This document shows, piece by piece, positions 2,912 to 34,300 of a stretch of DNA of 34,640 nucleotides (position 1 is the first letter of the stretch; the number at the start of each line of letters is the position of its first letter). The notes below the pieces were generated by a model. The model searched no databases and had not been told where the DNA came from. It worked only from the letters and a program-made list of their open reading frames with translations. The translations under genes and the position numbers were made by a program. Source of the stretch: Ectocarpus siliculosus (taxonomy: Eukaryota; Sar; Phaeophyceae; Ectocarpales; Ectocarpaceae); NCBI GenBank assembly GCA_000310025.1, contig FN649741.1, forward strand, positions 7,550,701 to 7,585,340, given 5' to 3'.

Positions 2912-3195
2912 GTAAGATGGACTCGTTGAGGTTGTGTAGCAGTGTACCCCCCCAGAATAATAAACACCTGGATAGAGAACGCCACGCATGCAAACGTAGA
3001 CGGTGCAATCGGGGGAGGATGTAAGCAATCCTATAAGAGATAAGACAAAATATCTATTGCCATCAAGGTTCTCCTATCGAGATGTAGCCGTTATAGGCTT
3101 ATAGACAATACTAGAGTATCTGATGATGTACCAGTCCTCTCGCTGCACCGCAACCCTTAACATTGAGTATACTTATCACCCCTTTTCCGTGTGCC

Positions 3196-6050
3196 ATGCC
3201 TGCCCTTTTGCATCATCATTGCATAGCTTGCACAGCAGTTTCGGTATCGACACTCCCGGCCACTCTCGCTGAGTGTAATGGACCGTACCGCCTTCAGGCC
3301 GCGAACATCCAAGTAGAGGTCTTCACGTGGTCACACGTCAACGATGAGCGCTGCACGATGCTGCACGACACGTCTGGGAACTGCGTTGTCACGATGGAAA
3401 GCCCAGCCACCATTGCCCGAACTTCCTCGGCGACCGCTGCAGCCCGTGGCGCCCTCGTTAGCGAGGAATGGTGGGCCCACATACTTCGAGACGCGGACAT
3501 GTTTTCATCTCTCGGAGGGGATGCCAAGGTGGTGTGTACATCGGCAGGGCACACCACGCGCTTGGTTTTGGACCTGGTGGAGCCTGAGCACACAGCAGTC
3601 GTCCCACTACCGAAAACTGCCGGCGAAGGAGGTGTTGATGGTTCGGTCGCGACGGCCATGTCAAGCTTCAAGTTGACATCCGAACAGAACGGTTCTATCG
3701 TCAGTTCTTCCCACAGCTCATTCCACGTTCGATTCTCACAAGTAGCAGGCCTGCGAAGGATTGGCACGGTTGATGGCGGCACGGCCGGGTCTGAGCTTTT
3801 GGAAACAGTCCCGCGACGGGTCAAGATATCGGTCAACGGCGTCGAGGCAACGACAGTGCTGGACAGCGTAAGCATCGACGGCGTTAGGGCAGGGACAAAC
3901 GTGTTTGAGTTTTGCCTGCTCGACAAACAGATGGAAGATCCGCAGCGGGGGACCCGGCCTGCAGATGGGGAGATTTGCATCGCCCAGATCTCGCTGATTA
4001 TCGAAGTCTTCTCGGCAGAGACACACGTAGTCCGGCGCAGACCTTCACAGGAGGGTGCGCTTTCCTCCAGAGCCGCTGCTGGCGGAACGGAGGGCGGGGA
4101 CGGCGGTATCGAGCCCCGTCGTATCGTGTTTGTTGTTGATCTTCAGGTCGTGGATGGCTACAAGCTCAGCACGCTCCACCTGTCAAAGAACATGCCCAGT
4201 GGTTTCCGAGCATCTATGCTGGACCTATCTTGTGCACGTGAGGAAAGCTTGAAGTAGGGGGTGCACCAGGTATTACTTGATACTGGAGAATTTCCCTTCT
4301 TCCCTGTGTCAAGATGCCGAAAAGTAAGTGATTGGCCATACACATGCCGATGATTAATACTTGTTTTCTCTTGAAGCATCGCGCATCTCACAAAGAGGAT
4401 TTTTTTTTCTCCGGGCTTGGCACCATTGAAGGGTTCTCTTGGCCAGGTTCCCAGCCCGCACAAACTGTTATTTAGAAAGATATCCCCCATCCCCCCGCGC
4501 CGTCGTGTGTGCAGCCGGGGATCTACCTGTGAAGGATTCGTTCGAGAGGCACGCTGTCGAAGTCTTTCGTTTGTGCATCAAGCCACCAATCAAGGTAAAC
4601 CACCTTCGCAGTTTCCCAGTCGGTAGAGTTCGCACGCTACATTTGCCTTTGGTGAAGGTCGTCTTTGTCCACGTTCACGCCCCTCGGCTTGATAAGTCCC
4701 GGCCAGAAAAAGATGACAGCATACTGTAGACTCGACACACGAGCGACATCATAAATCCAAGCTGTCACCACAGCAGTTGACGGTACTATTCCTAACTCAA
4801 GACTTTGCTGTGCACAGTTGAGTCAGCAATTTCCCCTCTGGCGGGCGTCTTGGTTTTTGTTGGCACTTACAAAACAACCATACGAAACCTTCCATTATCG
4901 TACACGACAGATGTGGGACTCGGCTCAGCGGGAGGGCACCACTGTGGTCCAGCTCCTGCATTCCGCCCTCGTGAGCGCGGCAACGTGGGAAGATGTCACG
5001 TCGAGACACCCCGACGTCGCGCAAGCACTCCTCGATCTCCACCGCCACCTATCCGCCTTCGACGTGCTCGTGATGTCCAACGGGCGCGGAGACAACGACG
5101 CGTTTCTCCTGCAGGCAGCGCGGTTGGCAAGAGTGGGCACTCGCGTGGTGCTCCTCGGCGCTGGTGCTGTCAGCAGTCACGTGTCTCCGCTGTTTGGCGG
5201 GGCTACCAAGCTCATCGGGCCGTCTCACTACGTCGCGCACGCCCCGGCCGTTAGCCGAAACGAGCAAGGCTTGTCGGTCAAGGTTTGCCAACCGGTGATG
5301 GACGCCGCGGGAGTTCTGAGCGCCGCTCGTTCGTGCCGCTTGACCAACGCGGAAGCCCGTGACGGCTCTGAGAAGGTCTCGGGTGGTCATCCCCAATACC
5401 CGGAAAGGAGCTTTGGAGAGGATGAAGGCGGCGCAACTGGCGTCAATGACGGAGGAAGCGTTTCACCCTCGCCCTCGAAGTTTATCATGGTCGGCCGAGT
5501 TGTGCCCGAAAAGACGCCGGGTATGTTTGTGCGTGCCGTGGCGGTACTGCAGAGGAGACTGGAGGAGGGCGGCGGAAGGCGAGCAGAAGCTGTCGTCGTA
5601 GGGAACGGCACTCTGCTCGGGCCGATGCAGGGCCTCGCCCGGGACCTCAATGCAACCGTAAGGTTTACGGGGTTCCTGTCGGCAGAGGAAGTGCCCTGTG
5701 AGGTTCAAAAGGCAACCGCTCTCGTTCTACCCTCGACTGGCCCTACGGCGTTCGAGATGGTTGGACCTGAGGCCATGCTCCTGGGCGTGCCGCTGGTGAC
5801 GTTTGGGTTCGGGGGAAGCGGCGAGCTGGTTCGTCACATGGAGAACGGCATCTTGGTGGCCGAGCCCACTCCCAAGGCATTGGCGGACGCCCTCGAGCTC
5901 TTGGCTGGGGACGCGGTGTTAAGAGATCGCTTAGGAGCCCAAGCTCGACTGGACGCCCTTCAGGCACTCTCTCTACCAGAAATGGTAGCTTGTTTTGTGG
6001 ATGAGTTCGGCAGCTTTGCGAAGAATAGAAGAAGAACTAGCCCGACGTAA
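3196..6050 (+). CDS. Family GT4 glycosyltransferase with N-terminal extracytoplasmic-type region
   Basis: I join exons 3196 (or 3239)-4237, 4515-4594 and 4818-6050 by GT-AG sites with matching phases (1, then 0); the stop is TAA. The first exon begins with a weakly hydrophobic stretch, or is entered at 3239 from 2911. It then holds a beta-sandwich-like segment (about 3810-4010, VKISVNGVEATTVLD ... GTNVFEFCLLD). Its end, RRIVFVVDLQVVDGYK, looks like the first strand of a GT-B fold. The last exon carries FDVLVMSNGRGDND, PSHYV, KFIMVGRVVPEKTPGMFV (about 5478-5531), VRFTGFL, and PEAMLLGVPLVTF with GGSGELV (about 5766-5832). These are the classic C-terminal nucleotide-sugar-binding motifs of GT4 (Glycos_transf_1) enzymes. 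In the usual E-x7-E position the first Glu appears to be Thr (TAFEMVGPE). Donor and acceptor sugars are unknown. Role inferred: secretory-pathway glycan synthesis. Confidence 0.82.
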
Positions 6051-7391: not shown

Positions 7392-7859
7392 ATGGACAAC
7401 GACTTCGTGGACGTGTTCCCCTCCGCGGGAGGGGTTGGCGACAGCCCCGTCAAGACGAGCGCTGCCGAGGAGCACCTCAACCCGGCAGGAAGTTCGTGGT
7501 CTCGCCCCGGGCTATCGCTCTCGATCCCCGCCGATACAGGAGGCAGGGAGGCCCTGGTGTCCCCGGCGGTCCCCGGCTCGAGGCGGGCGTCCATGCACTC
7601 GATGCCGAAGGAGGGCGTGCTGCGCGGCGCCTGCGCGGTCTCGGGAGCCGCGGTGATGAGGCAGGACGAAAATGCTGCTGCCGCTGCTGCTGCCGCTGCT
7701 GCGATGGTCGAGCAACCGCAGCCGGCAGCGGCGGCGGAGAGTCCGGCTCCTCCACGAGGCCTGATGCCGTTGACGATCGAGCCCGGGGGGGATTGCGTGC
7801 CGACGGAGCTGGAGAAAAAGAGGGCTAAGCTGGAGAAGTACAGATACGAGTGCAGCGAG
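7392..7859 (+). other. Exon 1 of the phosphatase: disordered N-terminus and lead-in to DSP domain
   Basis: This exon encodes 156 codons. It begins MDNDFVDVFPS, runs through Ser/Pro/Gly-rich sequence, has an alanine tract (about residues 95-104) and a PQPAAAAE stretch, and ends with the charged helix ELEKKRAKLEKYRYECSE. The helix-plus-ECS ending corresponds to the segment immediately before the DSP core in plant MKP1. The donor is GTGGGT at 7860, phase 0. The downstream intron is about 4.4 kb. Confidence 0.85.
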
Positions 7860-10800
7860 GTGGGTGGGGGTCTGCGGGCGCGTGGGCACCCGGGGAAGGG
7901 TTTTTTGAAATATGCGTTGACTGACCGACCCGCTGTTGTTGTCGTTTTTGATTTGCCACCCAGTTTTTCTCCGTCTCTTGGATATAGTGTGGATTCAGAC
8001 AGGGCGCGAAGGTTTCGTATCGGGGATGGTGCGAAGGAGGGTTAATATGGCGTGCGTGTTTTAAACCTGGGCAGTAGTTCGCGGACCAAGCGCAAGAGCG
8101 GTGCAGTGGGGGCGTCTTGGAAAATGGTGGCAAGGAAAGGCATGCGTGGTTGACTGTATCTACCCTGAAGTTTTCTTGCTTCCTCTCTCTCACGCGCGCT
8201 GTACGTTCCCTCTTGAGAAAGTCGCCCACAATTTGTAAAGTCGAGAGTTGGTCCGTTAGACCTCCCCGCTCCCGCGATTTTCAAAAGTCACGTCTCAGTC
8301 TCAACAAGGCAGACCCGGAGCTTTCCCGACGCGTGTTTCTGTGGGGTAGAGAGGCAGTGGCGGGCCATCGCCGTTCGCAAGTCGTGAAAATAACCCGCGA
8401 GTGTTTATACATCATTTGCTGGTAGCTGTCCTCTCTCTCTCTTCGAATGTACAATTCCGATCCGATAATGTCTGTTGCCGCTTTCTTCTTCTTGCTAAAG
8501 AAAAAACGCTGCTTCATTTTTTTCAAGCGGCGGGTAAGGTTCCTCACGGAATATGTTAGCGTAGGTCTGAAGAACGCGGTTTTTTCAGCCATTATGCGCT
8601 CGTCTATTCGAGGCACGCGGCGCGCCCTCTCCCTGTTGCTCGCAAGCTGGGATCAGCTTTTTTGTCTCTTGTGTGCTTGAAAATGGATGATTGCGATGCG
8701 CGGCCTTCCCGAATACACCGGAGCATCTTGACGAACAGACGCGAAGGTAGCAACCGCGCGACGCACGTTCCGGTTCCCGCGAAATATTTTTCCCGTCGTT
8801 TCATTATCTATTCGCTCGAACGGCGAATTAGAGCGCTGCCAACCATCGGGATGCACATACAGCAAGACATCACATCCCTGGCGTGCCGGCCGTCCCGTTT
8901 ACAAACACTTTTCGTCAGTTTGTTGCGTGTAAAGGTAAAGACGCAAAACGAGTACCATCTAGTACTTTAGAAATTCGGTGTGTTTCTGTTGCGCGCCTGC
9001 TGCCTTTGGGAGCCGTTTGATTGGTGCATCCGTTTTCTGTAAGCGTTGGGCAGCATCGTCTCCATTCGGAGAGCCCGCCCCAGGGTCGTGCGCCAAAAGC
9101 AGACAGCAGTGGCAGTCGCAATCATCCGACAGCAAGCAATACGCCCGTGTAGTTTCGTATATGACGGGGTGCGAAGCCCGTCCGCTTGCTGTACACACAT
9201 AATACACGCACGACTTTTTATAGTTGCGGCCGACTTTTTGGATAGCTGCATCAGCGCTCTTGGGGTGGTACACGGACGAGGCGCTACAGTACGCCCCTCG
9301 GCAAGCATGTATGCTTTCTCAAGTTAACCGACTCAGAATACGCCCAGTCCATTCCAGCGGGTTTCCCTCTTAACCGTCAACCGTGCTGACAATGGGTTTC
9401 AACGCATCCATCAGAACTTCGAACGGGGTATACCATATATTACCTCGAACGGGTGTTCTTTCTTATCAATGGTACAATGAATGTTGTTCCCGTACTCGGC
9501 CAGCAGAAAGCAGAACGATTTCGCTTTCGCCTCCATCCGTGGACATGACTACAAGGTACAGCACTAAATAGCAACATATTTGACATGTTGTGCATCCCCA
9601 CCTGGCGAGGATGTCTCCCAAAAATCAAATTAAACAATATTTCAAACATTCAAAATATTTCAAATGGTCTCTCTCGAGTAGGCTTGTCGGGCTACATGAG
9701 AGCCCAGAGTGTCGTCGAACGGGGATGCAAGATGAAAATATCCATGTATAGCGGGCAGCAGGACACAACCCAAACCACAGCTGCCTGCCAACTGCAGTGT
9801 AACGTTTTCCCAAGCTCACACAGCTGATGTGATTTTGACTCGAACAGCCAGCCCAACGAACCAAAAAGAAAAAGTTACAAGATGTCGCTTTGTGTGCTGT
9901 TAGGGAAATCGTGGAAATACAGGTGGCCTTCCTCTGACGCTATGGATTCATTGCTAATCTATCTCAGACTCTTTTTCTCAGATAGAGATGGATTCGTTGT
10001 GTCGTATTAAGAAAATAAAATAAAAACTGTTCCCAGCAGTGCAACCCACTCGTCTTATCAAACTTTTATTTGACGATTCCCTCCATAGCTTGAACATCCT
10101 CGCGTACACAACACGGGCAATCAATCCTAAGTACATTGTTCTCACTGATTGCGCGGAAAAGCATATCTGTGCCATCAAAACCCGTGCACAACAGCAATAA
10201 ACCCCCCGCCCCCCACGCTGCATGCACAGAGGTACGCGTGCATCAGCTGTAGGATTACGGAACTTGAAAAGCCTCTTCACGGCGGTGGTAGAAATGTTAC
10301 TTTCTCGGCGCACCCCTGTGCAATCGCTTGTGTTCAAAGTCCTTTCGTTCCTGCTTAGCTTTTGTATCGCCCCCCAGTGCGATGGCGCTCCGGTACCATA
10401 CAACTCTGCGGAATTTAATCTTCCGGTTCTATGCATACCAGTACGCGCACGCCCGGATACTTCCGATGTGCCAATTGGGATACAGCGCCAGAGTACACTA
10501 AATAGTGGCGATTCTGGGTGATTTGATCTTCCATAGCACCCGTGTGAGACAGCTGCGATGGGTGCGATGACGCGACACGCATACATACCAGCAGGGAGGG
10601 GTGATCACTACAACGCCTGTGTGATTTTACAGCGGGTAGTGTGCCAAGCAAGGTTGGTAATGCGTTGTTCAGGCGCCACGAACAAGGAATGGTGTGGGTG
10701 CCTGCTTTATCAACATGAGCGCATTGTTTTGCCATACCACTCTGTGCTCTCTCGGCTGCTGGCATGTTATCCTCGCTTGTTCTTTTCCGTCAATAGTGCC

Positions 10801-13800
10801 CAGTTATAAGCCACACTTCATGAAACATTTTCTGCGCAGTTTGGTTTGGAGTGACAGGATATACCCTTCGACCTACTTTCAGTGAAGAAAATCTTCTCCA
10901 TTTCCACATGTGGTCCACGACGGTGCCACAACAAACACAACAGCGGAGCGCTATGAAGCGGCGAAATATCAGACCTACTACGGTTGCGCCGCATTATGTG
11001 GCCTAGAAACAGCAGTGGCGATGGCACTAGACCTCATGCCCGATTCTTTTTTTTGGGGGGGGGGTTCTCACCCCCGTGCGATAACCTCGATACTTTTGTG
11101 ACGCGCCCTGTGCGATGAGTCGCACCTTGAACATTTTGATTTCGATGTGCCTGCCAACATGGCTGCTACTATATTCAAGCTGCACCGCCATCAAGCACCG
11201 TTGTGCTTCTGATATTCCAAGGAATAGGGAGGAGGGGAGCGGGGGTGCGCCGCTAGACCAAAACACACCTTATCTTGTAGCAACATCGCGCCAAGACCGG
11301 GCACCCTTCGTGTGGATGTACTGCACTACAGCACGGGAGCGGCAAGATAATTCGGGCGGCCGTTCGAAAGCCGCGTTTTGCGATTTGCGACAGAAAATCT
11401 GGATACGCTACGTTCTATCCACTGATGTGGAAAGACAAACAAGCAGTGTCGCATTCGGTCTGACGTGACGTAGAACAGACTTTCGGTTGATAGAGGCGTT
11501 TCGGTCGCGGGCGGGCACGGGGTGGGATGCTCGGCTTTCTATGGGGAGGTACATCAAAGAAGCACTGATTTCATAGTAGCACCGGTCTCAACAAAAGAAG
11601 GATCTTGCTGCTACTAGTGACAGTAGTGCTGCGACTTCTGTTGCGCATCCTCCGTTCATGAAGTGTTGTCTGATCGTCTGATATTTCTGTATTGCGACGA
11701 TGGCACGACACGCAACGGCGCAGCGCTAGTGATAAGGAGCAACACTGATTACACAACTACATGTACACTGTCAAGCACGTATGCTCACGTTCTCTATTTG
11801 CGCTGCTGCTGCTGCTGCTGCTGCGGCGGCGGCGGCGGCGTCTACAACTATCATACTTGATAAGCTTTATTCATATGAGGCTGCCGCAAGTCTCATACCA
11901 TATATGTCGAGATTGGATCTGACGTGAGCCACCTTCGACATCCGAAGCTCACACGTAAATATGAATCCTTGACTTGATCGCCGGCGCTCTCTTCACCCCT
12001 CGCATCCTCGGCAGTACATGCATGCTCGCTCTCTTTGACCACCGCGCTTCCCCTCCTATACTGGAGACTTTTTCGACAATATTGTTGTCTTGGCGTTACG
12101 AACCGTTCCGACCCCTCTATCCAGTGTTGTATGCATACCTTCATCTGTTGGTACTCATCTATCACTTGGCGCGGTCGAATCCGTGGTCACAGGCTAGCTT
12201 GCCCTACAATGCAATGAACCATGCCCCGAAAATACCAGGTGTCAAGCTCGTTTCTTTACGTCTCGGGCGAAGACGCGGCGAAGCAGCAGGGGTTGGTGGC
12301 CAGCAAGGGCATCACGCACATCATCAACTGCGCTGGGCCTCAGTGCCCAAACTATCTGGAATATGTGAGGAAGCTTTTTCCTGGTAACGGCGGTTGCCAG
12401 GCTCGCCCGCCTGTGTCCGATATTCGTTTCCAAGTACAGCCGTGCCCGCCTTGCGGACACGATGATTTTCAGAGGAATGGTGCCCCGCAGAGTAAATAGT
12501 CAGTATAGATGCAAGTACTTTGTTAAGTAACAAGTCCACGCCTCGACGACACTTTCGTTGGAAGGAAACCAAGGTTATGGTATGTTTGCTTGAAGCGGGG
12601 ACAAATGCTGTACAGCCGATTTCCCCCAAGAGTTGCGCCGATGTGTTCCCCGACTCCGTGAGTTCTGAATGTAGTATATCGTGAGTTTTACCTACGCAGA
12701 GAGTGTACTCGGAGATCACCCCCCTGCGTTGCTTTTTGTACGTAGGTGGCGATTGAAAGCAGGCCTTCTCAGGCTGCATCGTTAGAGACGTGTGAGATCT
12801 GTCCATCGTATTTTGCGTAGAACCCTGCCTTTTCACAGCGAGCCAACAAGATCACTTTGCGCCTACGCGAGCAGTCCCCTCCAATGTTTTGGGCATGCCG
12901 TAGGCTTGACTTGAGCGTTGCGGCACGTGGTGTTGACTTGTATCGCGTGTGGCTTGTGCTGTAGCTCCCATCAACTCGCTCTAATATCTGCTCCGTTTGC
13001 TCATCATCTCGCTCTAATTTTTGTTCCGTTTTCTGTTCTGTTTCGAACAGACTGGGCGGTTCAACTTCTTGCGGCTGAACTTCTACGACCACCGAACGGA
13101 GGACTGTGCGTGGTTCATGTACAAGGCCTTTGACTTCATGAAGGCCGCGGAGGAGCAACGAGGGAGGGTGCTAGTGCACTGCGTGCAAGGGGTTTCCAGG
13201 TGAGTTTTGGCGTTCGTTGTCGTCTGGTCTCAGAAGGGGTATCTGTAGGGACGGCCGGAGGGGGATGTGATTTGTTCTGTTCCCGCAAAAAAATTGAGGA
13301 ATTTTGCGGTTTGGTCGATAACGGACTTTTGTTGGTTGAAAGCAGCAGCAGCAGCGGCAATACACGCAAGCGCGATGTTGAGTGCGTGGTTACGCTTGTC
13401 GTTGCGACCACGGTACCATGGTCATGAGACGTGACTGTCATGTCTCTTACACGAGCGTTCGCCTCTCTTCCCTCCCGCCCAGGTCGTGCACGCTGGCGAT
13501 CGCGTGGCTGATGCTCACGAAGGGGGTAGACTACGACGAGGCGTACCTGAGGGTGCGCCAGGGCAGGCCGATCTGCGCGCCCAACACGGGCTTCATCTGC
13601 AGCCTCCTAGAGTGGCAGCGAAGAAGGCAGCAGGTGATTGTTTTTTCTTTTGAATTTTCCGCGCTAACCGGCTGACCAATGAAAAGACGTCAGTCTCAGT
13701 GCAGTTGAAAACACAAAAACACTTCTATCTGCCATGAACTGGGACCCCGTAAGGAGGCAGCATGGAGAAGGGTAAACTATCCTTCGGATCAAAGACAGAA

Positions 13801-16800
13801 ACGGTAGCAAGAGAAGAGAACTGCACGCGTCTACCAAGGCTATTACCTTGTACTCGAGTTCGTTAAGGAGTACTTTCACCATTATGCTCCTTGTTTTCGC
13901 TCCCATTTTCTGATCATCATGTTGATAACAATCTCTTGACAGTTCTTCCCTAACCCTGCGTCTTTTTGTTTTGAGGAAGGTCACTTGGCTCAAACCCTTT
14001 GCTCTCTTCCACCCCTCCATAGTTTCCTCCTCCATTGTCGTCTTCGTCCTCCTTTCTTCCCTTTCCCTTTCCTTCGTCTCCGTCACTCCCAAAAGAATTG
14101 CCCTCATTTCTATCGTTGTCGCAGAGATCCCAACCGATTGCGCCCTGGTGGAAGTTGGTCGATCTAGGTAGCCTCATCCGACGTTTGAACACCCCCGTCT
14201 TGGACAGGGGTGTCAGCGTGTGTGTATGTGTGTTGTGTGGTCCTTTGATTTGCGTCGATTGCGCTAGCCGGCTGACCAATGAAAACGCGTGTCTTACAGC
14301 GGAATAGAGAACACGGGCACAATTTCTACTGTGCGTTGTGTACTTCGTTATTCCGCATAGATGCGATCACCGACTGACCGATGATGACACGACTTGAGTG
14401 CTTATCCCGATATAGAACGCGAACACGGTTTTCATTAGTAGTCATCGGGCTTCCCCGGCAGGGGAGGCGCGCGCCTGGGTGTGTACGTGTGGGTGGGTGT
14501 TTTCATTCTTGCAAGTAGTTCACGGTAGTTCCGCATCTCTGTGTTTCACATTACACAGGGAGGGTTGAGGGGCTGGAGTGGGCGACCTCGCTCCACACTC
14601 CACACTCTTGAGGGCAAAATCGATGCCACTGATGTTTTCGGGAGGTCGTTCGTTGGCGACGATTAGTGTTGTGTGGCGAGAGGTGGAAGCTAGTCGAGCA
14701 GAATCTTCTCTCAAGCTGGAACGCGTCAGGTTTCCCTGACTTGTGTCCCCCTTCAAATGGGCGCGGATTATGTACCTGGATGTCTTTCGAAGGCAATAAG
14801 CGCGACTTACACCCCTTCCCAAGCCCCCTCTGAAGCCTTCGAGACCATTCTCTGTGCTTGCTTCTCCCTCTTTCCACGTACGCCATTCGGTTCATGGTTA
14901 CACCTTCCCCCCCGCCCGACCAATGTTTTTGCTCGCGCACGTACCCCTCTTCATCCAAGTGTGTTTCATCCTTGCTCTGTCTGTCTCTCCCTCCTTCTCT
15001 TTGTTACACTCACTCACACTCTCTCCCTCTCCTTTTCTCTCTCCCTTGTCCTCTCTCTCGGCAGCCGCCCTCTTCGCCGTTGCTCTACCGGACGGCGTGG
15101 CACGTACCCCTCTTCCCGAACGACCTTGTCCTCAAGATCTGCATCCACGAGAGCGACCGAACGAACGTCAAAGCCACCCTGGCGGCTCTCGACTCCCGCG
15201 GCTGCTACCTTCTCGTCGTCCCGGCCACCGCCGGCGGCGGCGGCGGGGGGAGGGCAAAGGCGACAGTCAGCATGGGAGTGATCCCGTCCAGAATCCGAGG
15301 AGGCTTCGCCCCTTCCTGTTCCTCGACCAGGCAGATACGAACCGGAGGGTTCGGGTTGCCCACCCCGCCCTCGCGCACCCCAAAGGCCAACAACAAGCGC
15401 GGCAGTAGCTTCGGAGTCTCCGTTGCCCCCCGTTGCCGCTACCCGCTGCCGCTGCGCGGCAGCGAGTACTGACCATCCTCGNNNNNNNNNNNNNNNNNNN
15501 NNNNNNNNNNNNNNNNNNNNNNNNNNNNNNNNNNNNNNNNNNNNNNNNNNNNNNNNNNNNNNNNNNNNNNNNNNNNNNNNNCCGCTGCGCGGCCGCACGC
15601 GCTGTCCCTCGCCACCCGGTCCGTCTCCCTCAGCCGCCTGTCGACCCCGTCCCCCGCGGCGGCGAGGGCGAGGGCGGCGGCGGCGGCGGCGGTGATCGCG
15701 AACGCTAAGGCGGTGGCGGCGGTAGCGGCGGCGAAGGAGGCGCAGGCGGTGGCGGCGGCGGCATCGGCGGAGGAGGCGGTGATGGTGGCGAAGGCCGTCG
15801 AGGACCGGCGTCTCTGTGCCGTGGACGTGGCGAGAGTCGGAGGTCTCGGCGAGAGGCGCGCCCAAGGCTAGGCTCTGGACGGAGACGTCCCCGCTGCGAG
15901 TGACGAAGACGGCGGGGACGGCGGGGGGGGGGGCTAGTAGTGGTAGAATTTTGCCAGAGGCGGCCGCGATTAGGCCTTCTTCTGCGCCCGAGGTGTCGCA
16001 GCGACCAGCGGCGGCCGGCGGCGGGGCTCGGGGGGGGGGGGAGGAGGAGGGCGGGGTGTACGTGTACGTGTGGAAGGGGGCGCAGAGCAATGGTGAGTGT
16101 GGAATTCGGGCCTGGGGCGGGGGGGTACCTTTTTTTTCTGTCGTGTTTTGTTTGGTGAAGTTCCTGAGTGTACATTTCGGTAAAAGTTTGCTTGCTCTTG
16201 CGGTTTGATTGTTGAATGTTGTGGTTTTGTGGCAATTTTTTTACGGTAGGACACTGATGTCCTCGTCACCTCCAAAGTAAGCTTCTCTACGACACCTTTA
16301 TGCAAGAGACCCTTGACAATGCTTGACGCACGCCCTCGCCCGTGCGTTGTCGACCACATCACGATGACCCGCTTATCCATATCTCGTGGCTTTCCTGGCG
16401 TGGCAGCACAAATGCTCGAGCTGGCGAAGGAAGGTGCGCGGTGGCTGCGCGACTACGAAGGGTGGGGGGTGGGGTCGAACGCGCCGGTGGTGGAAGAGGG
16501 GCAGGAGCCACACGAAGTGCTGCGACATCTGGACCAGGCGGGCGGTGAAGCAAGAGAGGTGCGTTTAGTAGAGCTCGGAACAGACAGCTTACTCATGTTT
16601 GATTGTTTCGGGCGTTTTGTTCGTTCATCGCCTATCGTCCGCGTTTATTGTAGAGCGATGCGCGGGGGGCTGCGATATGCAGCGTTCCCATCCGCGTGGT
16701 AATAAGAAGGGTGCTCGCGGTTGTGGCTGGCGGCTCAGGTAGCGGAGAAGAGATGGAAGGCATGAGGGGTGCCCACGTGTCCAGTGCTGCTGTGCGGTCT

Positions 16801-19565
16801 TCCCTGTTGTGAACTATACGGGTTTCTGCTGTTGTCGATGGCCCAACGAGTGTTTTTTCCGGGAGTTTTGGTTCAATCTAGGGATGTATTCGCATCCGAA
16901 GTCGGGGTGAAGACGATGCTGTTGAGCACAACTCGCAGATATCAGAGATCACATGGGAGATCAGTCTCGCGTTAGACTGAAGTCTATGTGGAAGTACTAT
17001 TAGCATGCATTTTTCAGTGTGATGAGGCGTTTAGTTTGTTGTGGTGCTTCTTACGGTGATGATGGTCCCTTGTTGGTCACCCCATCCTCATCTGCGTTGC
17101 AACCCCCCCCCCTGCTGCCGTAATACAGCCTCCGGTCTACGGAGATCTCGTTTCGCCGTCGCCGCCACCAACAGCTGCAAGAACCAGCCACAGCCACTCC
17201 TCGTTCATGCCGTGTCCAACGCCTTCACACGGCGGCGGCGGCGGAATGATGATGGGAAGGAGCGCCCCGATGCTCTCGCCGGCAGAGACCCCGACTCTGT
17301 CGCCCGCAGGACCGAGCCCTTCCCCCGGAGGGGTTAGCCTCTCGCCCTCTCCCTACGGCAGCACCGGTGTCTCCCCCGCGGGGGCTTCGCGGTTCGGTTC
17401 GGCCTACGGGGGGGGAGGGGGTCCGACGATCTCGCCATCCGGATCGACCACCGTTTCTCCGGCACCAGGGCATCACAGGCTCAGCGCCGGGGGCGGCGGC
17501 GGCGGGGGGGGGGGCGGGGGGTACCGGGGTTATGGGGGGGGGGACAACAACCTGGCGAGAAGCTCCATGGGTTCCGCGACCCAAATGGGCCAGGACGATT
17601 ATGACGATTACCATTACCGAAGACGAAGAGAGGCTTGCGATGGGGCTGTCTCCTTTGAGCGAGGGTCGTCCGTCTTCGCTGGGCGTCGGGGTGCGGGGGG
17701 GAGGGAGAGGGCGCGACGCCAGTGTCCCCCGGCTGTTTGAGCTCTCCGACGAGCTCGGGCTGGGGCACGGGGCTAGCGGGATGCGGTGGAGCCAGCTGTC
17801 GATTTTTGACGATCAGGTGGGCTGTTTGGTGGGTCTTGTCTCTTTCCTCGGCGTTGCTGTGGAGCAGTTATGGCGGTATTGCTTTGATTGGAAACGCGAG
17901 GTGCCACATGTTATGTATGGGTGGGCCGCGCTTACCGGCTGACCAGTTGAGTGAAGTCGGTTTCATTGAAATATGTCGGTTTCAGCAGGACGAAAAACGT
18001 GCATGAAGAGTTTTTCTCATCTGCGGGGCTCCCTGACAAGGGGCGCCATGAAGGAGACTGGGCACAAAATTCTATTCTGCGGATGTGTCTGTAGGTGTGC
18101 ACGTATGGGTGTGGATTTCTTCTTTTTTTCGTGAAGAACATCGAGGCGTCTATCCGGCTGACCGAGGAAAACGGTCGGTCTTTTTTTGACAAACACACCC
18201 GATCACGTTTTGCTCGGGGTGGAGCATGTCCGCCGGTGCCTACATCCACTGATTTACGCTTGGATTGCGGTTGGTTGATTCTACCCCTCGCTTGTCGACA
18301 CAGCTTCTTAATAGCTATCGTGGCTGTCACCACTTCGCGTTGCATCCCCTTTCCTTAGCGCGTTGCGTGGGCCCCTTTACGTCATGTGAAACCAAGCTCA
18401 ACATGCTCTGGCCCCACTTCACAAGACATGCACGATTCGGAGACTTTACCCATGTATAGGACGGTGTGTATTGATTTTTTTTTGTTTTAACCCCCTCCCC
18501 AACTCGCGTCCTCTCTCGCCTCTGACGGACGTCTTAGGATCTGTTGCCGCAGTGCTGCTTCCTGCTAGTGACTCCCGGCAAGCCAAGCTTCCTGTGGATC
18601 GGAGAGGCCTTCGCTGCGGGTCTTGTGCAGGTGACAGATGGAATGCTGCGACTGGGAGACAGACAAATACACATGCCCTCGTATCTGAGGCTGAGATTTG
18701 CTACGTCCAACAAACTTTCCGCTACCAATCACCTTGCACGAAGATCTTTTTTGCTACAGGTTGACTCAAGCTTGCAGACGTGTTATTGATGTGCTTGGAG
18801 GCGTGGCGGTAGTTGCCTAGTTGACACCTATAGTATGGCATTCTCACCCTCCTGACACTAACCCTGAGTCGGTTGAATCGTTGCCATCCGCACTTGGAGG
18901 TGGTGAGTAAATAAGTAAATACTTTCACGACCGCCTTGGTGCGTGGTGGCTGGTGGCGCTGACGGTGCCTGTTGTTGTGTCTTGAGGTGGGCGGGTGCAG
19001 CGCAAAACGTTCTGGACGTCCTTTGTCAAGGTGGCATGAATGAACGCCAATACCTGTGAACAGAAGGAATCGTTCTCGATGGAGACGTGCGAAGGTGATG
19101 TCCTCGCACATGTAAATAGTTGTCTTCATCTCCTCATTTGAATCTTGTCGTCCCTGTCACCCTTCAAAACCTTATCCAACCGCGAAATGAAGACATGCAC
19201 CCACCGTCTCGACGAAGCTACCATCGACCTTTTCCTCAAAAACCCGGCATCCTTCACGCCTGCCCCCGCATCGCTCGACACATGTGAATAGTAATTATGT
19301 ATCGTTAGACAACAACGACCCCCAAGTTAGAACCTCGCCAAAACACACCACTCGCACGAAACAAAATCCCCCACCACTACCCCAGGTTGTGAGCTCGCTG
19401 GAGGAGCTGCAGGAGCTGGCCAGAGACATCGCCGTGAAGGACGCGAGGAGACTATCGGACCGGACACTTCCCCTACCCTCGGACGTGGAGACGGCGGTGA
19501 TCGTTCCTGGAGACGGCAACGAGCCTCCGGAGTGGTGGTCCGCATTCGAGAGCGGGTACACATAG
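7392..19565 (+). CDS. MKP1-like dual-specificity MAP-kinase phosphatase with two gelsolin-like modules
   Basis: Nine exons: 7392-7859, 12239-12364, 13051-13199, 13483-13633, 15065-16092 (contains the N gap), 16407-16558, 17129-17816, 18538-18630, 19386-19565 (TAG). Donor and acceptor phases agree at every junction. The order is: low-complexity N-terminus with an Ala run; KLEKYRYECSEV leading into the DSP fold; candidate general acid Asp211 (NFYDHRTED); P-loop HCVQGVSRS with nucleophile Cys242 and Arg248; gelsolin-like module 1; a Ser/Pro/Gly linker; gelsolin-like module 2. This is the architecture of plant MKP1, which dephosphorylates Thr/Tyr of activated MAP kinases in stress signalling. The start is the first ATG; GTG at 7332 is in frame but unlikely. 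Exon 5 has in-frame stops around the gap and exon 7 is 3n+1 long. Both fall in low-complexity DNA, so I treat them as assembly faults or missed microintrons rather than a dead gene. Substrate is inferred. Confidence 0.88.
7860..12238 (+). other. Intron 1 of the phosphatase gene (about 4.4 kb)
   Basis: Bounded by GTGGGT at 7860 and ACCAG at 12234-12238; the flanking exons join in frame as CSE|VSSSFLYVSG. No internal exon is needed, because the alignment with plant MKP1 is continuous across the junction. Inside are a (GCT)n/(GGC)n microsatellite at 11802-11840, a run of G at 11054-11063, and a 202-codon minus-strand open frame (9978-10586) without recognisable motifs. No transposase or reverse transcriptase motif was found. 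Confidence 0.7.
11802..11840. repeat. (GCT)n(GGC)n microsatellite
   Basis: Seven to eight GCT/CTG units pass directly into five to six GGC units, inside intron 1 of the phosphatase gene. Confidence 0.95.
12239..13633 (+). other. DSP catalytic core, exons 2-4 (12239-12364, 13051-13199, 13483-13633)
   Basis: Exon 2 encodes FLYVSGEDAAKQQ and GITHIINCAGPQCPNY, the first strands of the DSP fold. Exon 3 gives LNFYDHRTED, a helix, and VLVHCVQGVS. Exon 4 completes the P-loop Arg-Ser and encodes AIAWLMLTKG, the helix with YLRVRQGRPICAPNTGF, and ends RRRQQ. All residues expected for catalysis (Asp, Cys, Arg, Ser after Arg) are present, so the enzyme should be active. The exon 3 donor splits the Arg codon (AG|G) of the P-loop. 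Confidence 0.92.
13634..15064 (+). other. Intron 4 of the phosphatase gene, carrying three copies of an intronic repeat motif
   Basis: The donor is GTGATT at 13634. The acceptor CAG at 15062-15064 follows a very long pyrimidine tract (about 14960-15060). Copies of CCGGCTGACCAATGAAAA-like sequence start at 13668 and 14268, with a divergent copy near 14369. G/C hairpins followed by GTGTGTATGTGTG-like sequence lie at 14188-14230 and 14447-14500. No coding sequence is seen. Confidence 0.7.
13661..14385 (+). repeat. Intronic repeat family, three copies (13661-13735, 14261-14335, 14364-14440)
   Basis: The core words GCGCTAACCGGCTGACCAAT and GCGCTAGCCGGCTGACCAAT are followed by GAAAA and then loosely matching sequence ending in AGAACACGGGCAC- or AAACACAAAAACAC-like words for about 70 bases. 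The third copy (ACCGACTGACCGATGATGAC) is more diverged. Related copies lie in intron 7 at 17928 and 18151. Confidence 0.7.
15065..16558 (+). other. Gelsolin-like module 1 (exons 5-6) interrupted by low-complexity DNA and a gap
   Basis: Exon 5 opens in phase with PPSSPLLYRTAWH, LVLKICIHESDR and ALDSRGCYLLVVPAT, matching the start of the gelsolin-like domain after the DSP core of plant MKP1. The strand VYVYVWKGAQSN appears only at 16057-16091. Between them lie Gly/Ala-rich sequence, an in-frame TGA at 15470, the N gap, and a frame change required between about 15783 and 15868. Exon 6 (16407-16558) joins in phase 1 and gives AQMLELAKEGARWLRDYEG and VVEEGQEPHEVLRHL, the closing helix and EGxEP motif. 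Confidence 0.8.
15482..15581. other. Assembly gap (100 N)
   Basis: One hundred N lie inside exon 5 of the phosphatase. The same word CCGCTGCGCGGC occurs just left of the gap (about 15449-15460) and just right of it (15582-15593), so the contig ends may partly duplicate each other. Confidence 0.98.
17129..17816 (+). other. Exon 7 of the phosphatase: Ser/Pro/Gly linker and start of gelsolin-like module 2
   Basis: From the acceptor CAG at 17126-17128, the frame encodes PPVYGDLVSPSPP and then repeated LSPAETPTLSPAGPSPSPGG-like sequence. Many SP and TP pairs could be proline-directed (MAPK-type) phosphorylation sites. A glycine run follows. The last part, PRLFELSDELG ... RWSQLSIFDDQ, matches the 'PkLy.vSD' opening of a gelsolin repeat but is in another frame. 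The exon is 3n+1 bases long; runs of G at about 17504-17521 and 17532-17541 are likely places for a one-base error. The donor is GTGGGC at 17817. Confidence 0.78.
17817..18537 (+). other. Intron 7 of the phosphatase gene with two copies of the intronic motif
   Basis: Bounded by GTGGGC and a CTTAG acceptor. Copies of the CCGGCTGACC motif begin at 17934 (within CGCTTACCGGCTGACCAGTT) and 18153 (ATCCGGCTGACCGAGGAAAA). Sequence at 18059-18098 (GGGCACAAAATTCTATTCTG) resembles the tail of the intron 4 copy (14315-14335). Confidence 0.65.
18538..19565 (+). other. Gelsolin-like module 2, exons 8-9 (18538-18630, 19386-19565)
   Basis: Exon 8 is exactly 31 codons and encodes DLLPQCCFLLVTPGKPSFLW followed by IGE, the central 'D.....CFlLd.....iFvWiG' strands of a gelsolin repeat. 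Exon 9 encodes SLEELQELARDIAVKDARRL, the module helix, then VIVPGDGNEPPEWWSAFESG, the EGxEPxxFWxxF closing motif, and ends at TAG 19563-19565. All junctions are phase 0. Confidence 0.85.
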
Positions 19566-27697: not shown

Positions 27698-28942
27698 CAT
27701 GTGCCGAACCGTCAGGGTTTTGGCCGAAAGCTTCAACGAACGGGCAACAGTTACGCGTCATCTTCTTAATGGATGGGGAGGAACTGTGTGATGTGTTTGT
27801 GGTTAACAAAGAAACCAGGAGAGGTAAATGATAATAAGTGGAAAGTGACCTCAGGGGGGGGGGGGTTGTACTCATAGTCGTGCATGCCGTAGTCGTTTGA
27901 CCATTGACCTCGCATCCCTACAAAGCCGGGACGGAGCACGCCGGGTTCTCACCGGACCAGGCTCTCACATCACCAAGCGCGAAGCGCCGTGAGGTATTTG
28001 GCGAGTCGCATGAAGGGTGAGCTGCATCCTGCTAAGGGTGTTCGGCATCTTGTGCTTACTTCCTTGCGTACGGATGACAGCTACGTATGACTTAATTTAT
28101 TTTCTGGTGCTTTCACTTCCAGAGACAGTTGTAAGTACTGTGTAACTGCCTCAAGGAAGCTTGACCATTTTAACACAACGTGGTGCGATCATCCCCCGTT
28201 GCGCGGAGTGAGCGTTGTCGACCCCGCACAACATGATCTACTCGAACACCATTTCCATTATGGTAACCGCCAAACAAAAACCGAGGTACAAAAAAAAACC
28301 CGGTAACCTGGTTGCCGAGTTCACGAAGTGAATTGGCTTGTTTTACAACGTCGTTGCCGAGCGACGAGAACCCAATCCCGATGGCAAACACCGAGTGGGG
28401 GGCTTATTTTACAACGTCGTTGCCAAGCGACGAAAACCCAAACCCCGATGGCAAACACCGGAGGGGGCGGCTTGTTTTACAACGTCGTTGCCAAGCGACG
28501 AAAACCCAAACCCCGATGGCAAACACCGGAGGGGGCGGCTTGTTTTACAACGTCGTTGCCAAGCGACGAAAACCCACACCCCGATGGCAAACAAGGCCGA
28601 GGGGGGGGGGGGAAAGTGACCCCAGGGGGTTGGGAAAAACATGGGAGTAAATACTTCATGAAGGCTGATCAAGAGCAGCCAGGGAGGATCTAGATGCCGC
28701 TAATGGAAGGCAGCAAAATGGAGAAGTAAACAACTTTTGGCGAGAGTAGCTGGCGGAGATATCCAACACAGACGGCCTACAAGCTGGGCACTTTTGTTAG
28801 CATCTCCGCTTTACAGGCGAAGAGCTGGGAGGATGTTGTGGCAGCTTGTATGTTGGACACGCCAAATCAATATGTATGATAAATGTGCCGAACCGTCAGG
28901 ATTTAGGCCGAAAGCTTCAGCGAACGGGCAACAGTTACGTTT
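27698..28942 (+). repeat. Direct repeats of about 58 bp (27698-27757 and 28883-28942)
   Basis: Both copies read ATGTGCCGAACCGTCAGG, then GGCCGAAAGCTTCA, then CGAACGGGCAACAGTTACG, and both are open for the same peptide frame (CAEPSGF, PKAS, NGQQLR). The copies differ at five positions, and three of the differences are silent. A second shared word, GGAAAGTGACC(T/C)CAGG, lies at 27840 and 28612, in the opposite order relative to the first. Confidence 0.8.
28335..28604 (+). repeat. Tandem array, four units of 66-68 bp
   Basis: Units start with GGCTTGTTTTACAACGTCGT (GGCTTATTTT in unit 2) at 28335, 28401, 28469 and 28537. Units 2 to 4 are nearly identical. Each contains a short hairpin, CGTCG TTGCCAAG CGACG, and a TTGCC/GGCAA inverted pair, and ends in a G-rich stretch. 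The period is not a multiple of three, so the frames across it are not evidence for coding. Confidence 0.95.
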
Positions 28943-31318: not shown

Positions 31319-34300
31319 ATGAAACCATTGCTCGTCGTTTTGGCCTATGTTGAGTCTTTACCTCTGGCGCAAACGTTCTCTGCGACGTCGGGCATCAAGA
31401 TAGCATCAGCAGGAGTTACACCTCCTCCAACAACTTCATCATTCAGCAGTAGTTACAGCAGTAGATCGTGGGGGACCGCAGCAACAACTGCCGTACAACA
31501 ACCCGCCGCTGCTGCACCGCGGTTGACACCGGTGCGTCCGCGCACAGCGCTTGGTGCGGCCAAGCTCGCAGTGGATGTGGGAGACGTGAGGCGCGGCTTG
31601 TCGTCTGCGCGAGAACGTCTGGGGAAGAACCGGCAGCTCTTTGACGAGGCTAAGCTTGAGGGGGAGCTGGAGTACCTTGAGGGGGTGAGCTCGGAGGCCG
31701 AGTTTTGGAACGATGCTAACTCGGCACGGAAGACACTTGGGGACTTGAACAGGTCAGGTTGCGGCCCGGAGTTCGGAGTGGGGGGTAGAGCGCGTGCACG
31801 TGTTTAGTAGTAAGGGAGATTGTTGGTGGGTACATGTTTGGAGCAACACCAAGTATGGAGTGGCAGCGGCGGTGACGCAAGGTATCCCACCCCCAGGCAA
31901 GGTAGCCCCAGGACCGATTTTCAAAGCTCGATTGCTCCACAAGCATAAGGAGTGGCGGTGGCGGCGTTGGAACCGTCTCGTCGAGAGCAGCTTTACAAAA
32001 ACAAATCGGTTGATTCGTAAATCGTCTTCGTCGTGGAGTTATCGAGCTTTGAAAATCGGTCCAGGCAGGGTGTGTGATATCTTGCGTCACCTCCGGTAGG
32101 TTTGTCTTTTGTCTATGTTTTCATGTCTTGTATTCCGCCGCATTCAGCGCGGAATGAGCTGTAGCAACAGCAGTTTCAGTCCGGCACAACTCGCAGTGTA
32201 GTTGGCTCTGGCACCCTTCTTGTCGTGTGTTCGTGGACACAGCAGCTTGACAAGCAGTCCCAAAAGTCGCAGGGTCTACCTCTCTGCTTGCGACGCAGAG
32301 TTTGTTGTCCCCTGGGCACCAGTCTATACCATACCCCTCCGTATGTGTGTTTGGCGCACCATCCGGGGTGATTGTCACACGGAGTATTCTTCACTTCTCC
32401 TCCTGCGGCAATTGCCTTCAACTTTTAACGGGCATCGTGCTTTCCTTGATTTCGACCACATGCCCTGCGTTGCCCCAAGACACATTCACTCATGGCTCTG
32501 CTCTGGCTACATATGCACACCAGAGTCTGGCAACGAGGGTAATCTACCGGCTGAAATTTGTTCCACAGGAGGCGTAGATGCACTAGCAGTGGCACCAAAG
32601 TCACCACTGCTGTAGCTCCTCTAGACAAAAAACACTTGGTAACTCGTCACGTGCTCGGCCCCCTCCGCTGCTGCTGTTACATTGGTACACCGGCAGGTTG
32701 AAGTTGCAGTTGGACCGATTGCATCGGTGGCGGGGATGGGAGGCAGACGCGGAGACGGTTATCGAGCTCTGCGGGGAGGAAGAGGGGGGCGACGAAGAAA
32801 CCGTCGCGATGCTGGATGAGGCAATGGAGGTACGTCAGGAAATCCTGGCTTAACAGAGTCGTAAGGTAGTAGACACCGCTACAAGCCTACTGGCGAGTTT
32901 TCGCTCTGTTGGTGTCCGGAGAAGGGGGAGAGAAGGAAGCTTGATGTTTGTGGAGGCCACGGAGCAACTGACGGCGACGTAGCCGACATGAGCTCGACGA
33001 TAAGGAAAGGGGGGAGGTGGAGGAAGATGGAAAATTGGTCACAGTTTTGGGGCAGGGCCGTGGAGGCACGAGGCACGTGGTCGGCGAACAACTGCGACTG
33101 CGTGCGGTAGTCTAGCAAACACAGACGACATCGAGAAATCTTGGACTCTTGCGCGGAAACGTTAATTCCTACACACAATTGTGAAGCCCAGAGCCCTGTT
33201 TGAGTTCATCGATGACACAAAGCATTATGTGCGCAACAGCAACGGGTACAACCAAGCCGTTCTTATCTAGAGCCCAAGAAGCTTCTACAGGAGGTCCCCC
33301 GACTCGATCCTTGCAGCCTCAGCGAAAGCTCCCGCCCGTCCCCAAAGCACCTGACTAGCGTAACACCCATCCAACGAGGTTGTGTCTCTGCTTTCCCGTC
33401 AACGGTGGCGTGTGCGTGAGGCTTTACGAAACGCCTTGTCCGTGTGGAAAACCCTGCCCGTCGCGAAACTTCGACAGGCGTTACAGCTCCTCCAGCGGGA
33501 CTTGGACGCGTGGGAACTGCAGCAGTTGCTGTCGGGCAAGTACGACAACTGCGGCTGCAGGCTGACTATCATGGCCGGCGCGGGGGGAACGGAGGCCCAA
33601 GACTGGGCGGAGATGCTGCAGCGAATGTACATCCGGTTCTTCCAGAGGAGGGGCTTCAAGTACAAGATGGTCGAGGAAGAGGTAGGGTATGGAAGGGAGT
33701 GGCACGGCGGGACATGTGGTACACTGAAGAGCAGAGGTGTGGAAAGCGTGTGATCTACTTGTAAGAAGGTTGGAAAGCATGTGTTGTAGTTTGAGCAGGG
33801 ATGTTGAATGCATCCGTGTGTTCTATGTTGAGCAGGCGATGGGCGTGGAGCAGATCAATTGCTCTCTGACGGTTTCATGGCAGCCCTTCAGGTATTCAAC
33901 ACGAGGTTAGACACCGAAATGAAAACAGGAACGCGCCATGTATGGAACCAAACAACGCGACACATACTCCTATGTGGATACCACGACAAATACGAGATTT
34001 GTAACATGCTGATGGCTGAAGATGAAACAGATCATGGTTGTATGCGGCGCGAGGCGTGACGCAAACACGTCTGCTTTCGTATCCCTATCTCCATGGCGCA
34101 GTCGGGGGAAGTAGCGGGCATCAAGAGCTGCGAGATGCAGGTGGAGGGAGACTTCGCTTACGGTTACCTGGCCGGCGAGAAGGGGACCCACAGACTGGTC
34201 CGGCAGTCCCCTTTCAACGCGCAGGCGAAGCGACAGACCAGCTTCGCGGGAGTGGAGTCGTTTCCGATCATCGAGCAAGACGACTTATCGTGAGTCGTCG

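Follow-up and report, generated by a model that had tools for sequence, protein, structure and literature searches.

The window analysed here is a stretch of 34,640 nucleotides from contig FN649741.1 of the brown alga Ectocarpus siliculosus. Within it a gene joining a dual-specificity phosphatase (DSP) domain to gelsolin-like modules was reconstructed from nine exons on the forward strand, at positions 7392-19565 (Table 1). The borders of exons 1-4 carry GT/AG splice signals with consistent phases.

Table 1. Features of the reconstructed gene, in positions of the window
Feature	Position (strand)	Content	Evidence
Exon 1	7392..7859 (+)	Start codon, low-complexity N-terminus, basic leader to KYRYECSE	GT donor, phase 0
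Exon 2	12239..12364 (+)	DSP domain begins	AG/GT borders, 126 nt; DSPc
Exon 3	13051..13199 (+)	DSP including HCVQGVS	Borders, phase, sequence; DSPc
Exon 4	13483..13633 (+)	Remaining active site and DSP end	Borders, phase; DSPc
Exon 5 before gap	15065..15472 (+)	First half of putative module 1 (~15065-15229), then low complexity, in-frame TGA	
Gap	15482..15581 (.)	Exactly 100 N; N count not necessarily the real size	
Exon 5 after gap (5b)	15582..16092 (+)	Ala-rich insert, frame 2 best, then frame 0	Coding score; donor
Exon 5b end	~16056-16092	VYVYVWKGAQSN of putative gelsolin module 1	
Exon 6	16407..16558 (+)	Second half of putative module 1 to VVEEGQEPHEVL	Borders, phase; PDB gelsolin match
Exon 7	17129..17816 (+)	Linker rich in Ser/Pro/Gly in frame A (open to 17737), then a change of frame near 17.6 kb	
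Exon 7 3' part	17718-17816	Frame B, start of putative module 2, ASVPRLFELSD...	
Exon 8	18538..18630 (+)	DLLPQCCFLLV...FLWIGE, putative module 2	Borders; hhalign
Exon 9	19386..19565 (+)	End of putative module 2 (VIVPGDGNEPPEWWSAF) and stop codon	Acceptor; hhalign

The product of exons 1-4 matches the Pfam family DSPc (PF00782) at 96.3 bits, against a cut-off of 33.5, and contains the HCxxGxSRS signature of that family as HCVQGVSRS, bearing out the complete DSP active site described in the initial annotation. This motif straddles the border of exons 3 and 4, and the catalytic cysteine codon is assigned by the motif to 13180-13182. The match of the PDB search falls in the DSP part, among the 60 of 117 matches listed. 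In pairwise scores alone, the domain is 42.5% identical to that of Arabidopsis MKP1 (AtMKP1; 119 bits) and 34.6-35.8% identical to three DSP stretches from the PDB search (83-88 bits), suggesting that it is nearer to AtMKP1 than to these three; in this and all other comparisons a provisional AtMKP1 sequence served as comparator. With the insert of the first module removed, that AtMKP1 sequence aligns across 254 columns with 37% identity (E 1e-50), through the ECS.V leader and the DSP and on into the adjoining gelsolin module, as expected of the plant-MKP1-type DSP plus gelsolin layout that had been proposed for this locus.

The region behind the DSP (module 1, exons 5-6) appears to be gelsolin-like, in keeping with the earlier description of such a module at this position. 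Gelsolin-family matches in PDB emerged only after its low-complexity insert was taken out, with whole-sequence E-values of 1.4e-6 (adseverin) and 3.9e-6 (horse gelsolin), each adding up several weak stretches; taken singly, the strongest stretches among the five alignments listed have i-Evalues of 0.007 (CapG) and 0.011 (adseverin). Pfam scores for the module alone lie below the cut-offs (Gelsolin 17.1 bits against 21; MPK1_gelsolin_C 17.8 bits against 27), the Gelsolin score reaches 20.7 bits in the joined construct, and exons 5b and 6 in unaltered form match no Pfam family. That the insert is instead an intron was considered unlikely, the AG ahead of GVYVYV having, by eye, no CT-rich tract. 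A profile built from modules 1 and 2 combined gave a mixed answer in PDB, with adseverin at the top at 0.001.

The second module postulated in the initial annotation (module 2, exons 7-9) held up in part. Its Pfam search returned a weak Rho_N match alone, neither Gelsolin nor MPK1_gelsolin_C (PF25466) being matched, and its PDB search yielded no gelsolin, only chance matches with E 0.3 or more. In the profile check that had been suggested, DSPc scored clearly, while Gelsolin remained under its cut-off for module 1 and was absent for module 2. A custom gelsolin profile gave 10.9 bits on module 2, and the same profile without the AtMKP1 C-terminal module gave 6.7 bits, in each case with 0 of 1000 shuffles scoring as high; a profile of animal domains only gave 2.3 bits, equalled by 3 of 1000 shuffles. 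Profile comparison with hhalign aligned the module end to end with gelsolin domains, with PRLF, FLL, FLWIG and G.EPP in register, at probabilities of 87% and 77% for two profiles and 32% with animal domains alone. Scores with the two profiles were 36.8 and 33.0, against maxima of 15.7 and 18.2 among shuffles (n=100) and of 16.9 and 15.9 among decoys (100 of 103 decoy ORFs); these controls cover the two profiles, the animal-only set standing outside them. Addition of the AtMKP1 C-terminal module to the profile lowered the score from 36.8 to 33.0, and BLASTP gave only E 0.015, for which reasons module 2 seems no closer to the plant C-terminal module than to gelsolin domains generally. It stops five residues ahead of the stop codon; the C-terminal module of the provisional AtMKP1 likewise lies at the very end, reaching 781 of 784.

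A scan of the 901 six-frame ORFs of the window, each of at least 25 aa, with three gelsolin profiles ranked the ORFs of exons 5b, 9 and 6 second, third and equal fifth with the full profile, and third, second and fourth without the AtMKP1 C-terminal module; with the animal-only profile the exon 9 ORF dropped to 11th. The ORFs of exons 7 and 8 were absent among the best 14, no single ORF was significant alone, and the top one with two of the three profiles (31465-31641) is unrelated to the gene. The strongest of the competing explanations holds that the C-terminal part is another domain altogether, in which WIG and EPPEWW occur by chance. The silence of Pfam and PDB on gelsolin and the weak animal-only signal favor it, but an end-to-end alignment with all four motifs in register, far above shuffles and decoys, makes it improbable.

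The nine-exon protein of the initial annotation survives cleanly in exons 1-4, but it cannot be read as a single continuous protein, given an in-frame TGA in exon 5 (15470-15472), the 100-N gap and two frame switches. By coding score, the preferred frame changes from 2 to 0 at about 15.8 kb and changes once more at about 17.6 kb. The stop and the two switches are most simply viewed as assembly faults, because the TGA and the first switch lie inside GC-rich low-complexity sequence around the gap, and the second switch, away from the gap, follows long G-runs at a distance of some tens of bases. The stop and the gap, together with the missing continuous frame and the weak and mixed coding scores from ~15.25 to 15.56 kb, could also be taken to mark two adjacent genes, a short DSP phosphatase ending at 15472 and a separate gelsolin-like gene downstream. 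However, the gap cuts through module 1 itself, with its first strands before and the remainder after in the same order as in the provisional AtMKP1, and the phases of exons 5b and 6 are compatible, so that we consider two genes very unlikely. Equally hard to sustain is a decayed copy of an MKP1-type gene, to which one stop and two frame switches might point, as these lie in low complexity by the gap or behind G-runs and no damage is seen in the DSP, at the splice sites or in either module core.

At the column of gelsolin Asp187, which we take to be the calcium-binding acidic residue, D or E is present in 6 of the 6 animal gelsolin domains used, while module 1 has G and module 2 has C; the acidic residue typical of calcium-binding gelsolin domains is thus absent from both Ectocarpus modules. 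Both modules of the provisional AtMKP1 likewise have no D or E at this column. Calcium coupling through the gelsolin modules, as the initial annotation had envisaged, is unlikely on this ground. At the usual site the modules seem incapable of calcium binding, which would have them viewed as folds for binding or tuning and not as calcium sensors.

Taken together, these observations are best explained, with a probability that we place at roughly 80%, by a gene encoding a dual-specificity MAP-kinase phosphatase of the MKP1 type with two gelsolin-like modules, presumably expressed as a single transcript. The cysteine of HCVQGVSRS would remove phosphate from the threonine and tyrosine of an active MAP kinase, the probable substrate of a probably active enzyme. 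Both modules would most likely act independently of calcium, as folds that tune the enzyme or bind partners, the MAP kinase itself perhaps among them; module 2 is placed at the extreme C-terminus past the Ser/Pro/Gly-rich linker. Against this reading count the interrupted frame, the missing Pfam and PDB gelsolin matches and weak animal-only signal of module 2, the insert removal that the module 1 match requires, and the provisional nature of the plant comparator.

Searches for relatives were largely silent. A 205-aa query (DSP and the first half of module 1) had no relatives in viral or genome contigs, single-protein scans of this kind being sensitive only to close relatives. Among phage records, 15 distant matches of DSP type appeared, the best at E 6e-3. 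PF25466 was matched neither in the one phage record nor in any of the 14 control genomes scanned, a silence that does not show absence, and the one NCBIfam match lies far below its cut-off. Calmodulin binding and MAP-kinase dephosphorylation are reported for plant MKP1 (PMC6255987, PMC4604306, PMC9157078); the word gelsolin occurs 0 times in the main texts of these three papers and of a fourth. Among the titles and abstract openings covered, with subscription journals mostly outside that coverage, none mentions an algal protein that joins DSP and gelsolin, or refers to gelsolin modules in plant MKP1.

The DSP plus two-gelsolin layout is already known from plant MKP1, and finding it outside plants carries some interest for evolution. 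It is about an even proposition that this layout predates land plants and came to be common to a stramenopile through shared ancestry or an algal endosymbiont, module 2 having diverged past the reach of the plant model and module 1 having been split by a long low-complexity insert. If the brown-algal origin is true, the two-gelsolin layout would be no land-plant invention, and questions would follow as to what the modules do in a group that became multicellular independently, and which elements of plant MKP1 are of ancient date.

The initial annotation had regarded the second module as an addition to the plant layout. However, the provisional AtMKP1 matches MPK1_gelsolin_C at 677-781 of 784; since both this Pfam family and AtMKP1 itself place a gelsolin module at the C-terminus of the plant proteins too, the second Ectocarpus module appears to be part of the plant layout and not an extra. 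The Ectocarpus protein and plant MKP1 would share the ECS.V leader, the HC.QGVSRS DSP, a gelsolin module right behind it, and a long linker followed by a gelsolin module at the extreme C-terminus. They differ in the long Gly/Ala-rich insert between two strands of Ectocarpus module 1, and in that Ectocarpus module 2 is missed by MPK1_gelsolin_C. DUSP4, DUSP16 and 3lj8 (presumably from yeast), which are MAP-kinase phosphatases and their kin in PDB, share the DSP domain at the 34.6-35.8% identity given above and are less similar to it than the provisional AtMKP1. With the actin-binding proteins gelsolin, villin and adseverin, the Ectocarpus modules have in common the gelsolin-type sequence pattern; unlike those proteins, they occur singly, are joined to a phosphatase and are devoid of an acidic residue at the Asp187 column.

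The phosphatase gene likely encodes a stramenopile MKP1-type protein, and the finding reported in the initial annotation is real in substance. The product of exons 1-4 scores 96.3 bits against Pfam DSPc and retains, as had been claimed, a complete DSP active site (HCVQGVSRS), whose Arg codon is interrupted by intron 3. A PDB search with the DSP and the gelsolin-like part behind it (module 1, exons 5-6), collapsed by removal of its Gly/Ala-rich insert, matched 117 distinct sequences at E up to 1, with DUSP4 first (2.8e-21) in the best 60 of these 117. The leader, DSP and module 1 together show 37% identity over 254 columns to a provisional Arabidopsis MKP1 (AtMKP1) sequence, not drawn from a database record, in agreement with the proposed plant-MKP1-type architecture; the DSP alone is 42.5% identical to this provisional sequence versus 34.6-35.8% to three PDB stretches. 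The long introns and CT-rich acceptors are only suggestive of stramenopile origin, and no close relatives of the protein were found in the viral-contig and genome-contig collections scanned.

Features located in the window
Feature	Position	Strand	Remarks
Exon 1	7392-7859	+	GT/AG borders, phase consistent
Exon 2	12239-12364	+	GT/AG borders, phase consistent
Exon 3	13051-13199	+	GT/AG borders, phase consistent
Exon 4	13483-13633	+	GT/AG borders, phase consistent
Glycosyltransferase group 1 ORF, 431 aa	4755-6047	+	PF13692, 81.3 bits
Open frame, 376 aa stop to stop	3127-4254	+	upstream of glycosyltransferase ORF
Tandem array, 68-base unit	28335-28593		3.8 copies, 94% matches

The glycosyltransferase ORF lies upstream of the phosphatase gene on the same strand, and the viral contigs searched held no close relative of it; the preceding open frame, in which Pfam searching to E 0.1 identified no family, perhaps belongs to the glycosyltransferase gene. 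Across positions 1-34640, ARAGORN detected no tRNA and Rfam no family at gathering score.

Exon 5 starts with PPSSPLLYRTAWHV and runs to LDSRGCYLLVVPAT, supplying the first strands of the gelsolin domain, and is followed by the Gly/Ala-rich stretch containing the N gap; VYVYVWKGAQSN and exon 6 form the remainder. Without the insert, module 1 matched adseverin (1.4e-6) and horse gelsolin (3.9e-6, versus 1.8e-12 to gelsolin for the gelsolin module of provisional AtMKP1) in PDB, these whole-sequence E-values being sums over several stretches, of which the best among the alignments shown had i-Evalues of 0.007 (CapG) and 0.011 (adseverin). At E up to 10, 32 of the 33 matches listed were gelsolin-family by name and one was a splicing factor. 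The expected gelsolin hit was likewise recovered with our own profile, on which unmodified exons 5b (exon 5 after the gap, 15582-16092) and 6 scored 21.1 bits, equalled by 0/1000 shuffles; it was not recovered in Pfam, where scores fell below cut-off (joined construct, 20.7 versus 21) and the unmodified exons matched no family.

For the C-terminal module 2 (exons 7-9), Pfam and PDB searches gave no gelsolin match; hhalign gave probabilities of 87% against a small gelsolin-domain set including the first AtMKP1 module, 77% with both AtMKP1 modules and 32% with neither. Shuffle and decoy controls cover the two sets containing AtMKP1 modules: the first-module score of 36.8 compares with a shuffle maximum of 15.7 (100 shuffles) and a decoy-ORF maximum of 16.9 (100 of 103 decoys), and the both-module score of 33.0 with 18.2 and 15.9, respectively. 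In HMMER, the module 2 score was reached by 0/1000 shuffles on the full profile (both AtMKP1 modules), 0/1000 on the reduced profile (lacking its C-terminal module) and 3/1000 on the animal-only profile (lacking AtMKP1). These comparisons suggest that module 2 is a diverged gelsolin domain, with a probability of somewhat under 90%. Among 901 six-frame ORFs of the window (at least 25 aa, N-rich ones excluded), none was significant by itself with these profiles; the exon 5b, 9 and 6 ORFs ranked 2nd, 3rd and equal 5th (full), 3rd, 2nd and 4th (reduced), and 1st, 11th and 3rd (animal-only). ORF 31465-31641, for which a Pfam search returned no family, ranked 1st, 1st and 2nd.

One continuous protein, as initially reconstructed, is not borne out, the reconstruction spanning a stop, a gap and frame changes. 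Frame 2 of exon 5 ends in a stop at 15470-15472, and 100 Ns occupy 15482-15581. By eye, copies of CCGCTGCGCGGC flank the gap (15449-15460 and 15582-15593), so it may conceal an overlap of two contigs instead of missing sequence. The codon score, trained on exons 1-4, the exon 5 start and the upstream ORF, and hence partly circular at the exon 5 start, is weak and mixed between ~15.25 and 15.56 kb, prefers frame 2 from 15.6 to ~15.78 kb, with frame 1 near or above it in places, and frame 0 from ~15.79-15.83 kb. Exon 7 scores mostly in frame 2 up to ~17.5 kb, low in every frame to ~17.6 kb, and in frame 0 from ~17.65 kb.

Calcium is liganded in gelsolin domain 2 by Asp187, which stands before CFIL. 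All 6 animal gelsolin domains compared have D or E in its column; module 1 has G there, module 2 has C, and the two modules of provisional AtMKP1 have G and S. Because the column is non-acidic in both window modules, direct calcium coupling through them, as suggested earlier, appears unlikely. Published reports describe raised MPK3/6 activities in Arabidopsis mkp1 mutants, and lost acquired osmotolerance accompanying an Arabidopsis MKP1 frameshift that removes the authors' "C-terminal MAP-kinase-binding domain" (PMC9157078), as well as calmodulin binding by MKP1 proteins (PMC6255987). They further describe a four-fold rise in TMKP1 activity once both calmodulin sites are deleted, a point on which AtMKP1 behaves differently, and a second AtMKP1 calmodulin site at 669-692 (PMC4604306), which extends into the first residues of the C-terminal gelsolin module (677-781). 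Together, these observations suggest that this module may function in kinase binding or enzyme tuning.

In provisional AtMKP1 (784 aa), Pfam identifies a DSPc domain, a Gelsolin match whose best stretch is 327-385, and an MPK1_gelsolin_C match at 677-781 with 120.7 bits that covers the whole model. The C-terminal part of this provisional sequence is credible because of this full-length match to a curated family so named, and, judged from this match, plant MKP1 carries a second, C-terminal gelsolin module. Since such a module belongs to the plant layout, the novelty initially attributed to it falls; module 2 of the window protein corresponds to that of plant MKP1 in position and fold, without clear sequence kinship.
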